From NCBI RefSeq assembly GCF_000010665.1, contig NC_012796.1, positions 5,046,001 through 5,110,000 of the forward strand: 64,000 nucleotides of DNA, in the 5' to 3' direction. The notes beneath the pieces are model-generated. The model saw only the letters and a list, made by a program, of their open reading frames with translations, had not been told where the DNA came from and did not search any database. The DNA comes from Solidesulfovibrio magneticus RS-1. GTDB taxonomy: Bacteria > Desulfobacterota > Desulfovibrionia > Desulfovibrionales > Desulfovibrionaceae. Below are positions 27,277 through 32,282 of this stretch, in pieces; positions within the stretch are counted from its first letter, which is position 1, and each line of letters begins with the position of its first letter. The translations under genes and the position numbers were made by a program.

Positions 27277-29649
27277 GTGTTGTTGCCCCGGTCCGTGCCG
27301 CTCGCGCGGCTTGCGCTTCTTGGCCTCGCCGCCGGCCTGATCTTTTACGCCCTCGGCCGGCCGTCCCTGTGGCTCGACGAAGCCGCATCGCCGCTTAACG
27401 CCCGCTTCCCCCTGGACTACATCATCACGCTTTCGCGCACGCTGGAAGAGCATCCGCCGCTGTTCTACATCCTGCTCAAGGGCTTTTTGCGCCTGGGGCA
27501 CGACGACTTCACCGTGCGTCTGTTGCCCGCCTTATGCGGACTGGGTTGCGTGGGACTCCTGGCTGCGGTGGGAACGCGGCTTTTTTCACCGGCAGCCGGC
27601 ACGGCGGCGGCCGCCATTTGGCTGGCCATGCCCCAGAACCTGCTGCTCTCCCGCATGGCCCGGCCCTATTCCCTGTGGCTGCTCCTGTTCTTGTGCGCCT
27701 TGTACTTTCTGGCCGGCTGGCTGCGCCGGGGGCGTAAACGCGACATCGCCGGAATGCTCGCCGCCGCCGCCCTGATGACGGCCTGCCACTATCTGTCCTT
27801 TCCCCTGCTGGCCGCCATGGGCCTTTGCCTGCTCGCCGTCGCGCCTGCCAATCGCCCGGGCTGGCCCGGCCGGCTGACCGCCGCCGGCCTTTTTGGCGCA
27901 GGCTGCGCCGGCATCGCCGCCGCCGCCTACTTCGGCCTTATCGCCCAAAGCCACACCCCCCAGCTCATCGCCGACGCCAACGAGACCGTGGCCGACGCGG
28001 CCCGAGCCCTCGGGGCGGCCCTGGGCGGCGTGCTCTACAGTTTCGACGTCTGGCCGGCGCGTCTGGCCGTGGGCGCGGCCGCCCTGGCCGCCTTTGTCGT
28101 TCTGGCCCGGCGGGACCGACGCAACTTCCGGGTCTTGGCCCTGCTGACGGTCGTCCCGCCCCTGGTCCTGCTGGCCATGGGCCGAGGCACCGGACTGTAC
28201 GCCCGCCATCTGTCGAGCCTGGGCATCCCCCTGGCTCTGGCCCTGGCCGGCGGCGCGGCCGCCTGGCCGCGCCTGGCCCCGCGCCTGCCGGCCGTGACCC
28301 TGTCCGCCCTGGCCCTGGCCGTGCTGCTGCCCCTGGCCGTCCATCACGACCGGTTCTACGCCGTCTCCAGCTATCAGGTGCCGGTCATCGGCAACAACTA
28401 CAAGCTGGCCGCCGCAGGCCTCGCCGCCCTGGACCGGCCGGGAACGATCCTGTCCTTTGGTGATGACTTCTACGGCAATGTCCTTTCCTGGTATCTCGAC
28501 CAGCATACGCCTTCCCTGGCCCTGGCCAATCCCCGACTGACGCCCGAGGACCGGGAAGCCCGGCTCCTTTTCGCCGCTGGGGCGCACTGGGGCTATCTGG
28601 CCCCCAATGCGGCGGCCTTCCTCACCCGCTACGGACCGGACGTGGCCCGGCACGACATCGAAACCTCCACCTTCCTGGAACTTGCCGTCCCCCGCGATCC
28701 GGTACGCCGCGTCACGGCCCTGCCGGCCCGCTACGGCCTGCCCATGGCCTATGACCGGGTTTTTGCCGAAATAAGCGCCCTTTCGGGCTTGCGCTTTCAT
28801 CAAAACGCCCTGGGGCCGGCCCTCATTCCCGTACGTAACGACATCGACGCCACGGCGCGCCTGACCTTTGCCAACGACGCCCCGCCCCAGCCCCAGGAAA
28901 TCCGGATCAACGTGCTTTTCGACAATTTTGGCCAGGACAACCGCCTGCTGGCCCGGATACGTTTCGACACTGAGCCGCCCGTGACCTTTCCCTTGTCCAC
29001 CGGCTACGACGCCACCCGCCAACGCCAGATTGCCCTGAAACGTGAGGCTCCCTACGCCAGAATGGACGTTGAGGTGATCCTGCGCTGCGCCTCGCGCACC
29101 CCGACCCTGGCCGGCGGCAATCTCCAGACCTTGCGGCTAACCGGCGTTGAAGCCTTTTTCTGTCCGGCAAACGCGGCCGGCCCCTGCCTGGACGCGGCCG
29201 AGCGCCACCTGACCGCCTCAGTGCTCGGCAACTACCTGGAAGAACGCTTCGCCGTCCCCAGCGAGACCGGCCAGGCCGCCCTCCTGGCGGTCCGAGAGAA
29301 CGTCGCTCCGGTGAACGAACACCAGGAGGCTGCCTGGACCGCCCTGTCTCCGGCCGATCCGTCCCGGCCGGGCGTCTTGCGCCTTCCCGTCACAGCCCGG
29401 CAGGACAGGCTGCTGCTTTTCCCGAGGGTCGGCCGGGACGGCATGGTCCGGGTCTACGGTCTGCGGCCCGACGGCGTGCGCGAACTCCTGTTCGCCCTGC
29501 AAAACACCGGCGAACGATGGACGCCCGTCAGCGCCCGCTACGAACTGGTGGTGCCGCCGTGGCTGCGCGACCGGGAGACTGACTTGGAAATCGAACTCAC
29601 CGGCCGCCGGGCCCAGCTGTGGACCCTGGGCGACGCGGCGCTGTTTTAG
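27277..29649 (+). CDS. multi-pass membrane glycosyltransferase (GT39/ArnT-like, GT-C fold)
   Basis: A 790-residue protein starting at GTG after an AAGGAGCGCCC site. The N-terminal two-thirds is membrane-embedded with ten or so hydrophobic segments (for example LALLGLAAGLIFYALG, AALMTACHYLSFPLLAAMGL). An early acidic loop, SLWLDEAASPLNARFPL, matches the first periplasmic D-E motif of GT-C enzymes that take sugars from polyprenyl-phosphate donors; LEEHPPLFYILLKGFLRLGH is also typical. The C-terminal part (about 500-790) is soluble and beta-rich, with no recognised domain. The acceptor could be lipid A, a protein or a surface polymer. It is a single-gene unit, followed by a TACGAGAGTA element. 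Confidence 0.8.
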   Translation: MLLPRSVPLARLALLGLAAGLIFYALGRPSLWLDEAASPLNARFPLDYIITLSRTLEEHPPLFYILLKGFLRLGHDDFTVRLLPALCGLGCVGLLAAVGTRLFSPAAGTAAAAIWLAMPQNLLLSRMARPYSLWLLLFLCALYFLAGWLRRGRKRDIAGMLAAAALMTACHYLSFPLLAAMGLCLLAVAPANRPGWPGRLTAAGLFGAGCAGIAAAAYFGLIAQSHTPQLIADANETVADAARALGAALGGVLYSFDVWPARLAVGAAALAAFVVLARRDRRNFRVLALLTVVPPLVLLAMGRGTGLYARHLSSLGIPLALALAGGAAAWPRLAPRLPAVTLSALALAVLLPLAVHHDRFYAVSSYQVPVIGNNYKLAAAGLAALDRPGTILSFGDDFYGNVLSWYLDQHTPSLALANPRLTPEDREARLLFAAGAHWGYLAPNAAAFLTRYGPDVARHDIETSTFLELAVPRDPVRRVTALPARYGLPMAYDRVFAEISALSGLRFHQNALGPALIPVRNDIDATARLTFANDAPPQPQEIRINVLFDNFGQDNRLLARIRFDTEPPVTFPLSTGYDATRQRQIALKREAPYARMDVEVILRCASRTPTLAGGNLQTLRLTGVEAFFCPANAAGPCLDAAERHLTASVLGNYLEERFAVPSETGQAALLAVRENVAPVNEHQEAAWTALSPADPSRPGVLRLPVTARQDRLLLFPRVGRDGMVRVYGLRPDGVRELLFALQNTGERWTPVSARYELVVPPWLRDRETDLEIELTGRRAQLWTLGDAALF

Positions 29650-29681
29650 CGGCGCGGGCAAATGACCAACATCGTTATTTT

Positions 29682-29709
29682 CCTTAACAATACTCTCGTA
29701 TTTTTAAGG
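29682..29709. repeat. TACGAGAGTA palindromic repeat, copy 2 (inverted orientation)
   Basis: Arms CCTTAACAATAC and GTATTTTTAAGG (one mismatch) flank a TCTC loop, the complement of GAGA in the other copies. It lies 32 bases after the glycosyltransferase stop and would serve as its terminator. Confidence 0.7.
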
Positions 29710-29824
29710 ATCGCGACATGGGAAACCGTTCGCCCGCCCCATGACAACCCTGCAATAATCGGCTCCAGACGGGCGGCACGGCCGGCCAAGCCTTGACGCC
29801 TCCCGGGGCCGGGTCTATCCCTCG

Positions 29825-29945
29825 CCCTACGTCGAGTCCCGCCCGTGGCGGGAGCGGGGGAACCAACCAACCGGGGCGCATCGCCAGCATGGCGTAGGGC
29901 AACCTCTTCGGCCCGAGCCCGTCAGCTAACCTCGTAGACGTCGAA
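29825..29945 (+). ncRNA. c-di-AMP (ydaO/yuaA-type) riboswitch
   Basis: Conserved blocks of the ydaO aptamer occur in the right order: GAGTCCC (29834-29840), GGGGGAACC with GGGGCGCATC, a small hairpin (GCC-AGCAT-GGC), GTAGGGCAACC, then GAGCCCGTCAGCTAACCTCG. The closing stem pairs ACGTC (29829-29833) with GACGT (29937-29941). I aligned it from memory to the Thermoanaerobacter tengcongensis ydaO RNA, and every conserved segment has a counterpart. It lies in the leader of a KimA-like potassium transporter, the classic ydaO target: in Bacillus, c-di-AMP binding lowers transporter expression when potassium is ample. A 310-base leader follows, longer than usual. Confidence 0.9.
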
Positions 29946-29946
29946 G

Positions 29947-29976
29947 GGGAAACCGCTTGCCGCAAGCAGGTTTCCC
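29947..29976 (+). promoter_or_regulatory. expression-platform hairpin of the c-di-AMP riboswitch
   Basis: GGGAAACCGCTTG (29947-29959) pairs with CAAGCAGGTTTCCC (29963-29976, one bulged A), starting a few bases after the aptamer. The 5' arm touches the GAAGGGG end of the aptamer, so the two could compete. No T-run follows, so control may be Rho-dependent or translational rather than by intrinsic termination. Confidence 0.5.
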
Positions 29977-30002
29977 AAAACCGGTCGTCCGGAGGGATGC
30001 CT

Positions 30003-30113
30003 ATGTCTTTTCGCGCCCATGGCCGTCTGGCCAGCCCGCCGTCCTTTGCCCTGTTTTTCCCTTGCCCCCGCGCCCAGGCCCAGCCGCCCGGAAAGGCCGC
30101 CATCCCGGCCTAG
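30003..30113 (+). CDS. candidate 36-residue leader ORF between riboswitch and transporter
   Basis: An ATG at 30003 lies six bases after a perfect GGAGGG ribosome site (29991-29996), 26 bases past the riboswitch hairpin; a second in-frame ATG is at 29997. The peptide begins MSFRAHGRLASPPSFALF and ends GKAAIPA. No family is recognised. It could be a regulatory leader peptide for the transporter 148 bases downstream, or chance. Confidence 0.35.
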   Translation: MSFRAHGRLASPPSFALFFPCPRAQAQPPGKAAIPA

Positions 30114-30260
30114 GTCCGGCCGCGCGCCGTTTCCCGCTATACCTCGCGGGACGGCGTCGGCCCAGGGAACATGCCCCGTTTTTTCGGGGTTCGCGCGCGT
30201 CTGCCGCCTGACGTCGGCTTGAGCGCCAGGGCAGAGGCGCGCCCAAAGCAAGGGAAAACC

Positions 30261-32282
30261 ATGTCCAACGATTCCATCCGGCCGACGAGCCGGCTGCGCC
30301 GCATTGTTTTTGGCAAATCCATCAACCTGGGCGACCAGTCCATCTTCCACAATCTCTCCCTGGTGGCCTTTTTCGCCTGGGTGGGCCTTGGGGCCGACGG
30401 CCTGTCCTCCTCGTGCTACGGTCCGGCCGAGGCCTTCCTGGCCCTGGGGCAACACACATTTTTGGCCGTCTTCGTGGCCCTGGGCACGGCGCTGACCATC
30501 GGCGTCATCAGCGCCGCCTATTCCCAGATCATCGAGCTTTTCCCCACCGGCGGCGGCGGCTACGTGGTGGCCTCGCGGCTGTTGTCGCCCAAAGTCGGCA
30601 TGGTCTCGGGCTGCGCCTTGCTCATTGACTATGTCCTGACCATTACCTTGTCCGTGGCCAGCGGGGCCGACGCCGTCTTCAGCTTCCTGCCGGCCGCCTT
30701 CCTGCCCTACCGCCTACCCACGGCCGTGGCCGGCGTGGTGGCGCTCATTGTGCTCAATCTGCGCGGGGTCAAGGAATCGGTCATGACCCTGGTGCCCATT
30801 TTCATGACCTTCGTGGCCACCCATGCCGTGGCCATCGGCTACGGCGTGTTCGCCCACCTGTCCGACATGCCGGCCCTGGCCGCCCGCCTGGGCCAGGACG
30901 TGACCGCCGCCCGCAGCGAACTCGGCGGCCTGGGCATGCTGCTTCTGGTGCTGCACGCCTACAGCATGGGCGCGGGCACCTACACCGGCATCGAGGCCGT
31001 ATCCAACGGCCTGCCCATCCTGCGCGAGCCGCGCGAAAAAACCGGCAAGCGCACCATGCTCTACATGGCCCTGTCCCTGACCCTGACCGTGGTCGGCATC
31101 ATCACCTGCTATCTGCTGTTCGACGTGCGGCCCCAGGACGGCAAGACCCTCAACGCCGTGCTGTTCGAAAACGTGGTGGCCGGCTGGGGGCCCGACCTCG
31201 GCGGCGGGTTCGTGCTGGTCACCCTGGTTTCCGAGGCCCTGCTCCTGTTCGTGGCCGCCCAGGCCGGCTTCGTGGACGGGCCGCGCGTGCTGTCCAACAT
31301 GGCCCTGGACCGCTGGCTGCCGGCCCGCTTCGCCTTGCTCTCCGACCGTCTGGTGACCCAAAACGGCATCCTGCTCATGGGCGTCTCGGCCTTGGTCCTC
31401 ATGGTCGTCTCCCACGGCTCGGTGGATCTGCTCATCGTCCTTTACAGCATCAACGTGTTCATCACCTTCGTGCTGTCCCAGCTCGGCATGGTGCGCCACT
31501 GGTGGGAGGTGCGCGGCCAGCGCGTGGCCTGGAAAAAAGGCCTGCTTCTCAACGGCCTGGGCCTGGCCCTGACCCTGTTCATCCTGGTCATGGTCACCTG
31601 GGTGAAATTCTTCGAGGGCGGCTGGGTCACCATCCTCATCACGGCGGGGCTGGCCGCAGCCGCCCTGGGCGTCAAGCGGCACTACGACCGGGTCGGGAGG
31701 CAGATCAAGAAACTCGATGTGCTGCGGGCCGTTGTGGACCCGCAAAATCCCTACACCCCGCCCATTCCCGTCAATCCCGAGCCAGCCGGCCAGCCGGATC
31801 TTGGCGCGCCCACGGCCGTCATCTTCGTCAACGGCTTCAATGGCCTTGGCATCCACACCCTGCTGTCCACGGTGCGGCTTTTCGGCAAGGACATCAAAAA
31901 CTACGTGTTCGTGCAGATCGGGGTGGTGGACGCGGCCGTGTTCCAGGGCGCGGCCGAGCTGTCGCGGCTCAAGGCCGGCATGCAGCGCGACCTGGAATCC
32001 TACGCGGCGGTCATGCGCGAGCGCGGCTTCCACGCCGAGGCCCACTGGGCCGTGGGCACGGACATCGTGGCCGAACTCACGGAGCTGGCCCCGGCCCTGC
32101 GCGAACGCTTTCCCAGGGCGATCTTTTGTGGCGGCCAGCTTGTCTTCGAGAAGGAAACCTTCGTGACGCGCCTGCTCCACAACTACGTGATCTTCGCCCT
32201 CCAGCGCCAACTCTACCGCATGGGACTGCCGTTTATTATCATGCCCGTGCGCCTGGACCTGCCGGAGTGGTTCGCCGACTGA
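30261..32282 (+). CDS. KimA-like potassium/amino-acid permease (APC superfamily)
   Basis: A 673-residue membrane transporter. The N-terminal 450 residues hold about 12 membrane helices of the APC fold (FFAWVGLGADGLSSSCYGPAEAF, IIELFPTGGGGYVVASRLLSPKVG, SGCALLIDYVLTITLSVASGADAVF). The GADGLSSSCYGPEE-like loop is characteristic of KimA-type high-affinity potassium importers. The C-terminal 220 residues are cytosolic. The start at ATG 30261 (MSNDSIRPTSRLRR) is preferred to an upstream in-frame ATG at 30171. The c-di-AMP riboswitch in its leader strongly supports a role in potassium homeostasis. It is a single-gene unit. Confidence 0.88.
   Translation: MSNDSIRPTSRLRRIVFGKSINLGDQSIFHNLSLVAFFAWVGLGADGLSSSCYGPAEAFLALGQHTFLAVFVALGTALTIGVISAAYSQIIELFPTGGGGYVVASRLLSPKVGMVSGCALLIDYVLTITLSVASGADAVFSFLPAAFLPYRLPTAVAGVVALIVLNLRGVKESVMTLVPIFMTFVATHAVAIGYGVFAHLSDMPALAARLGQDVTAARSELGGLGMLLLVLHAYSMGAGTYTGIEAVSNGLPILREPREKTGKRTMLYMALSLTLTVVGIITCYLLFDVRPQDGKTLNAVLFENVVAGWGPDLGGGFVLVTLVSEALLLFVAAQAGFVDGPRVLSNMALDRWLPARFALLSDRLVTQNGILLMGVSALVLMVVSHGSVDLLIVLYSINVFITFVLSQLGMVRHWWEVRGQRVAWKKGLLLNGLGLALTLFILVMVTWVKFFEGGWVTILITAGLAAAALGVKRHYDRVGRQIKKLDVLRAVVDPQNPYTPPIPVNPEPAGQPDLGAPTAVIFVNGFNGLGIHTLLSTVRLFGKDIKNYVFVQIGVVDAAVFQGAAELSRLKAGMQRDLESYAAVMRERGFHAEAHWAVGTDIVAELTELAPALRERFPRAIFCGGQLVFEKETFVTRLLHNYVIFALQRQLYRMGLPFIIMPVRLDLPEWFAD

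Follow-up and report, generated by a model that had tools for sequence, protein, structure and literature searches.

A c-di-AMP riboswitch upstream of kimA in Solidesulfovibrio magneticus that may act through a short leader open reading frame

Riboswitches of the c-di-AMP class, RF00379 (ydaO/yuaA), were predicted earlier before ktr, trk, kdp and kup genes in several phyla, Proteobacteria included (PMC6488665), and a survey that covers the Desulfovibrionales names D. magneticus (PMC3766115). The solved ydaO RNA contains a pseudoknot (PMC5393176). Two described members act on transcription: at B. subtilis kimA a terminator stem-loop ends it (PMC9960051), and the B. thuringiensis kdpFABC riboswitch, through which c-di-AMP lowers a K+ importer, uses an intrinsic terminator (PMC6488665). 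Translational action was first shown for the class, according to the authors of that work, at the nlpC gene of C. glutamicum, where it is graded as probable (PMC9960051). A comparable relay has been described for another ligand, in the B12 riboswitch of M. tuberculosis ppe2, a translational OFF switch with a short upstream open reading frame (uORF) whose translation the downstream gene requires, mainly by termination-reinitiation (PMC11260477).

The locus described here lies in a window of 64,000 nucleotides, i.e., the whole stretch of the S. magneticus RS-1 genome that was analysed (NC_012796.1, positions 5,046,001 to 5,110,000, forward strand). Its features, in window coordinates, are the following.

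29793..29821, + strand: likely promoter, with a -35 element TTGACG at 29793-29798, a 17-nt spacer and a weak -10 element TATCCC.
29820..29955, + strand: RF00379 aptamer, 87.7 bits against a cutoff of 38; identity within the genus 0.90 over 29829-29941.
29829-29833 with 29937-29941, + strand: P1 helix, ACGUC with GACGU, which closes the aptamer.
29903..29909, + strand: predicted pseudoknot strand 1, CCUCUUC, which lies in the loop of an aptamer hairpin and is complementary to 29943-29949.
29943..29949, + strand: predicted pseudoknot strand 2, GAAGGGG, whose last three G are also part of hairpin H1.
29947..29976, + strand: hairpin H1, with an outer stem of 29947-29954 and 29969-29976 plus an inner stem; no T-run.
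29968..30002, + strand: alternative helix H2, predicted between 29968-29976 and 29994-30002, around CCGG-UCGU-CCGG.
29991..29995, + strand: Shine-Dalgarno (SD) sequence GGAGG of the leader open reading frame (ORF); identity of the region 29977-30005, 0.86.
30003..30113, + strand: leader ORF of 36 codons, MSFRAHGRLASPPSFALFFPCPRAQAQPPGKAAIPA; stop position conserved, peptide not.
30114..30260, + strand: unconserved spacer from the leader stop to kimA; identity 0.33 over 30114-30245.
30261..32282, + strand: kimA, encoding a KimA-like K+ importer of 673 aa from ATG 30261; phmmer match to 6s3k, E 3.6e-59.

The RF00379 covariance model matched 29820-29955 (+) over its complete length (model positions 1-134) with 87.7 bits and an E of 4e-19, well over the gathering score of 38. 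This was its only match in the whole genome, and a scan of 29700-30300 against Rfam at E<=1 returned RF00379 alone. A ydaO aptamer closed by ACGTC/GACGT, as proposed in a preliminary description of this DNA, is thus borne out, and on sequence and structure the site can be taken as a confirmed member of the known class, whose predicted aptamer would be expected to bind c-di-AMP. Five P1 pairs are possible in all eight genus sequences compared (see below); P1 did not form in an unconstrained full-length fold without ligand. The -35 hexamer TTGACG is invariant in the alignment of the eight leaders, a sigma-70 consensus scan returned no promoter site, and transcription probably starts just upstream of the aptamer.

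Downstream, at about 319 nt from P1 (some 310 bases in the preliminary description), kimA begins. Its product aligned with the solved KimA 6s3k over residues 33-486 (E 3.6e-59), no other Protein Data Bank sequence being hit at E<=0.001, and it also matched Pfam AA_permease_2 (E 1.5e-17) and no NCBIfam family; the closest named KimA, at 97%, belongs to Solidesulfovibrio magneticus Maddingley MBC34. The K+ ligands of KimA, Asp36, Tyr43, Thr230 and Tyr377 (PMC10284832), are all conserved, aligning to Asp46, Tyr53, Thr242 and Tyr395 as counted on the 6s3k alignment, in agreement with the KimA-like potassium transporter initially proposed. Arg337, which contacts c-di-AMP in solved KimA (PMC10284832), has no direct equivalent in this alignment of residues 33-486: Ala355 stands in its place, and the next residue is an Arg. 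As for the ligand, a diadenylate cyclase, whose presence in the genome had been left to be checked, is encoded there (PF02457, E 3.9e-41), in a frame that by eye sits between dihydropteroate synthase-like and YbbR/CdaR-like frames. A second, weak DAC-domain match occurs in a 421-residue frame of the same genome (L003 1501-1611), and two such matches are seen in many genomes of the class. The cyclase domain was found in 314 of 348 class genomes, and in 239 of the 246 with a completeness of 90% or more and a contamination of 5% or less.

The riboswitch itself was found in 46 of the 348 class genomes and, in a sample of 395 genomes from the phylum, in 52, by searches whose filters lose some weak matches. 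Sorted by the first matching downstream gene, all 59 riboswitches of the class comprise 24 kimA, 30 kup and 5 nuoA-like loci. Among 19 of the best-scoring loci in the phylum sample, a kup match lies downstream in 10, a close kimA match in 4 and a distant kimA-like match in one (L113), and two (L103, L107) match neither query. Because riboswitches of this kind are common in class and phylum, the combination with potassium is in itself ordinary; the link between potassium uptake and c-di-AMP drawn in the preliminary description is supported for this lineage, and its novelty is less than was implied there, such riboswitches having been predicted before (PMC6488665). What we consider new is the proposed output through a leader-ORF gate, which comparative anatomy supports. 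A literature search, with most subscription-journal papers outside it, found no paper joining a c-di-AMP riboswitch and an upstream open reading frame.

Some further loci of the class and phylum had features of their own. Frames that appear kdpA-like by eye follow the riboswitch at two loci elsewhere in the phylum (L115, L116), with a T-run shortly past the aptamer. At a kimA locus elsewhere in the phylum (L111), a hairpin and T-run can be seen by eye shortly after the aptamer, so that kimA is not always tied to a terminator-free platform. RF00379 matches lie upstream of KimA relatives on contigs labelled Chlamydiae, Omnitrophota and unclassified bacterium (L079, L074, L067), in a scan of 20 of 32 loci; these are contigs of metagenome-assembled genomes with unverified labels. 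Two genomes have tandem units of riboswitch plus transporter (L047 in G219, L045 in G212); in G219 a third copy reaches no more than 54.5 bits, and in G212 the pseudoknot strand of one copy is degenerate, so that these copies may be decaying. Finally, two aptamers before kup (L041, G195:C27:18548-18785, and L042, G198:C5:14231-14468) give matches 238 bases long, with about 100 AT-rich bases containing inverted-repeat-like stretches inside an aptamer hairpin and the rest intact by eye.

Within the window genus, kimA was found in 9 of 14 genomes and the riboswitch in 8 of those 9; in the ninth (G327), the contig ends 121 nt upstream of the kimA match. The eight genomes that carry both were compared, their lineages being related, so that they do not amount to eight independent events. 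With gaps counted as mismatches, the mean pairwise identity rose from 0.32 upstream of the promoter to 0.90 in the aptamer, dipped to 0.68 in H1, recovered to 0.86 in the ribosome-binding region 29977-30005, fell to 0.40 in the body of the leader ORF and 0.33 beyond it, and reached 0.73 where kimA starts; the conserved block thus runs from the promoter to the leader AUG and then ends. A conserved stretch around CCGGAGGGATG precedes the leader AUG, and GGAGG is followed by ATG 6-8 nt later in all eight genomes.

The leader frame, which is also readable from an upstream ATG at 29997, is 35-40 codons long in every one of the eight, ending 55-147 nt upstream of kimA in a stop codon that varies by genome (TAG, TAA or TGA). 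The other two frames of the eight leaders run on without a stop for 59 codons or more in each of the 16 cases. Codon differences in the two closest pairs of genomes are nonsynonymous to synonymous in ratios of 6:2 and 7:2, so the peptide is without visible constraint; it matched no family in Pfam or NCBIfam, and a functional leader peptide, being unsupported by conservation, was discarded. The ORF at 30003-30113 is presumably translated. From 30003 to kimA the leader is purine-poor, seven of eight falling below the 5th percentile of 200-nt segments drawn at random from the window, and the excess of C over G is beyond the 90th percentile in four of eight, a composition that lends modest support to an involvement of Rho. 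The spacer 30114-30260, together with the body of the leader ORF, is a possible Rho-loading region.

The ribosome-binding site and leader ORF at 29991-30113 were absent from the preliminary description, as was the pseudoknot. The latter comprises 7 complementary bases in the window. A search pattern applied to the 59 class loci fitted 53, leaving out six, and in 51 of the 53 the strands form a helix of 6 or 7 pairs without interruption, always at the same place in the tail; the exceptions are one mismatch in G319 and one kup copy in G212 with only a displaced 5-pair helix. The strands covary between genera (CUUCUC/GAGGAG, CUUCCUC/GAGGGGG, CCUUUC/GAAAGG); those of ydaO were deduced by us from the RNA sequence printed in PMC5393176.

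Hairpin H1 corresponds to the long hairpin devoid of a T-run that had been noticed initially. Its outer stem can form 7 or 8 of 8 pairs in all eight genus sequences, with paired changes in one close pair of genomes, G322 and G328 (A-U to C-G once, A-U to G-U once). Since both need the G-run 29947-29949, the pseudoknot and full H1 are mutually exclusive. When the pseudoknot strand is blocked, H2 appears in the predicted fold of the tail, covering the region of the leader SD and AUG; its inner four pairs are possible in 8/8 genus sequences, the outer ones being less regular. In full-length folds with P1 enforced and the pseudoknot strands blocked, the probability of H2 was 0.26 in the window (inner pairs), 0.84-0.99 at six other genus loci and 0.01 in G330. 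H2 may thus form over the leader ribosome-binding site.

Our preferred reading, in which we have moderate confidence, is that the expression platform controls ribosome entry at the leader ORF, rather than at the kimA start or through an intrinsic terminator, and that the effect is relayed by coupling or by Rho polarity. In the absence of c-di-AMP, H1 would hold the G-run 29947-29949 and leave the leader ribosome-binding site usable. In its presence, P1 and the pseudoknot (29903-29909/29943-29949) would capture the G-run and open H1 from its base; the freed 3' strand of H1 could then form H2 over the SD, the leader ORF would go untranslated, and the loss of its translation would lower kimA expression. 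The net outcome would be that high c-di-AMP turns K+ import down. Computed support comes from the aptamer, the pseudoknot complementarity, H1, the conserved leader ribosome-binding site, AUG and stop position, the KimA homology and the cyclase gene. The OFF direction is a presumption, adopted because of physiology and of the described c-di-AMP riboswitches; folding does not give the sign.

The relay to kimA, too, is presumptive as regards Rho or coupling. Simple coupling is unlikely in the window genus, a leader stop 55-147 nt from kimA being too far, and Rho-dependent polarity across the unshielded leader would be the more likely route there. Against a Rho relay counts a c-di-AMP riboswitch of S. 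coelicolor that is cited as terminator-less and Rho-independent (PMC9960051). In sister genus g25, where the leader stop falls in or beside the kimA ribosome-binding site, termination-reinitiation would serve.

The comparison across genera bears on this scheme. A leader ORF is present at 19 of the 24 kimA loci of the class. All ten g25 kimA loci have one of 29-37 codons behind the riboswitch, with a stop codon whose first base is 12-17 nt ahead of the kimA ATG in nine, stop and ATG overlapping as ATGA in the tenth; the single g7 kimA locus has a 29-codon leader ORF that ends 97 nt before kimA. By the same SD criterion, no leader ORF was found at the three g4 and two g23 loci, where the riboswitch faces kimA directly. 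As to the layout of a riboswitch-coupled uORF such as that of ppe2, in g25 the start lies beside the switch and the stop at the kimA start region (10/10); in the window genus the start lies beside the switch and the stop 55-147 nt off.

A different target was observed in genus g46 of another family, where five riboswitches precede a nuoA-like gene (L007, L010, L014, L015, L025/L049); downstream frames in G004 resemble nuo subunits by eye. In four of these five leaders the aptamer is followed at once by a hairpin and a long T-run (loops of up to 18 nt being allowed), and the fifth, G007, has GGGAGG and an ATG in their place. A link of c-di-AMP to complex I would be unusual, and a literature search on it returned no paper.

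We assessed sequestration of the SD by comparing its opening energy with that of 60 shuffles per locus, pseudoknot strand blocked, at 52 of the 59 loci (the five nuo loci were excluded by design, one kup locus for want of an SD call and one locus for want of a tail match); 50 of the 52 also entered a full-length pairing analysis. At the eight loci of the window genus, sequestration of the leader SD was not beyond that of shuffles, 0.17-0.90 of the 60 reaching it; the change in opening energy upon blocking the pseudoknot strand was positive in 8/8 (0.1-3.4 kcal/mol) and was matched by 0.05-0.60 of shuffles. None of the 60 shuffles attained the observed opening energy at any of the ten g25 kimA loci; the fraction that did so was no more than 0.02 at each of the eight g12 kup loci, 0.02 at the g7 locus and 0.03-0.05 at the g4 loci. 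It was not unusual at six g25 kup loci (0.13-0.50), at several g23 kup loci and at two g23 kimA loci (0.43, 0.97). At nearly all g25 loci the folds predict the SD stem whichever the state, so a kinetic switch would be needed there. Folding hence supports SD sequestration at many sister-genus loci, and neither sign nor strength in the window genus. Two pairings suggested by the window alone were set aside: that of the leader SD with the start of the kimA coding region, found in the minimum free energy fold, because the stretch differs in other genus members, and that of a GACGUC near 30211, complementary to P1 by eye, because its surroundings are not conserved.

The most serious competitor of leader-ORF control is an ordinary transcriptional riboswitch, in which H1 or another hairpin terminates in the absence of a canonical T-run or with the help of a protein, the leader ORF being incidental. 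We regard this as rather unlikely. The B. thuringiensis and B. subtilis members do use intrinsic termination (PMC6488665, PMC9960051), as four of the five nuo-linked members in the neighbouring family appear to, and H1 is conserved with paired changes. On the other hand, a terminator scan of 29600-30400 found one site against a mean of 1.0 in shuffles and none of the eight genus leaders has a T-run after H1, on which grounds an intrinsic terminator in the window was rejected; furthermore, high conservation continues past H1 as far as the leader AUG and then stops. A lenient scan of all 59 leaders, run with loops of 3-8 nt and no shuffle control, matched short terminator-like sites in 8/24 kimA, 2/30 kup and 3/5 nuo leaders, among them 6 of the 8 of the window genus. 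The latter matches have broken T-runs and are scattered at places not shared between genomes, except in the close pairs G000/G323 and G322/G328; they led us to lower slightly our confidence in leader-ORF control and to raise slightly that in a terminator. The initial suggestion that control may differ from an intrinsic terminator is supported, not proved, and gains precision from the leader ORF.

Control could also be translational with the opposite sign, c-di-AMP drawing CCUCUUC into the pseudoknot and thereby freeing the leader SD, with leader translation repressing kimA or the switch being ON. The full-length folds would allow such a sign, for in the free state the leader SD partly pairs with the aptamer (genus mean 0.55, of which 0.42 with the pseudoknot loop), and this pairing falls to 0.02 when the pseudoknot strands are blocked. 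Yet the SD is paired both with and without those strands, turning to its own tail (mean 0.78) once they are blocked; moreover, the c-di-AMP riboswitches described in PMC9960051 and PMC6488665 are OFF switches, and physiology speaks against a K+ importer being switched ON by c-di-AMP, all of which makes this sign very doubtful in our eyes. Hardly less improbable is that the leader ORF derives by decay from the beginning of kup, copied to kimA along with the riboswitch, and is now a relic without function. Judged by eye, leader peptides of g25 (e.g., MPAVSLAVLRP) resemble some Kup N-termini of that genus, eight genomes of which carry kup and kimA riboswitches a few kilobases apart; but a relic is unlikely to have kept its stop at the kimA start region in 10/10 loci of g25 or, in 8/8 loci of the window genus, a length of 35-40 codons while its stop codon changed. 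An origin from kup and a present use of the leader ORF can both be true.

Returning to leader-ORF control, we put forward as a tentative generalization that the riboswitch of the Desulfovibrionales may govern a disposable leader cistron, of which ribosome-binding site, start and stop would be selected and the peptide would not. Translation of an empty frame would then be the relay, through reinitiation in one genus and through exclusion of Rho from the leader in Solidesulfovibrio; at other loci of the class this aptamer would serve direct SD control, before kup, and a terminator, before nuo genes. One aptamer family would thus be combined with several output devices in neighbouring genera, and the leader ORF would seemingly be kept for being translated, not for its product. 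With the scheme comes a testable proposal of how a nucleotide second messenger could set the potassium uptake of sulfate reducers.

Compared with the described systems, the locus shares with B. subtilis kimA (RF00379, ydaO/yuaA) the aptamer, P1, the pseudoknot complementarity and a KimA-type target, but where transcription ends there at a terminator stem-loop (PMC9960051), the locus here has no T-run after the conserved hairpin and has a conserved leader ribosome-binding site. With B. thuringiensis kdpFABC it would have in common that c-di-AMP lowers a K+ importer, whereas that riboswitch works through an intrinsic terminator (PMC6488665). The C. glutamicum nlpC riboswitch is alike in having no canonical terminator and a probably translational action, its authors suggesting masking of a GGAG; it differs in acting on the gene's own start codon, with no leader ORF mentioned in the available text of the report, and in targeting a cell-wall peptidase (PMC9960051). 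M. tuberculosis ppe2, unlike in ligand and aptamer, has at the level of translation the OFF sign proposed here and relies on a short uORF, and its AUGA overlap resembles the g25 loci, one of which has ATGA, more than the window genus, where the stop lies 55-147 nt away (PMC11260477). The arrangement we propose would join the ligand class of nlpC with a uORF relay of the kind seen at ppe2.
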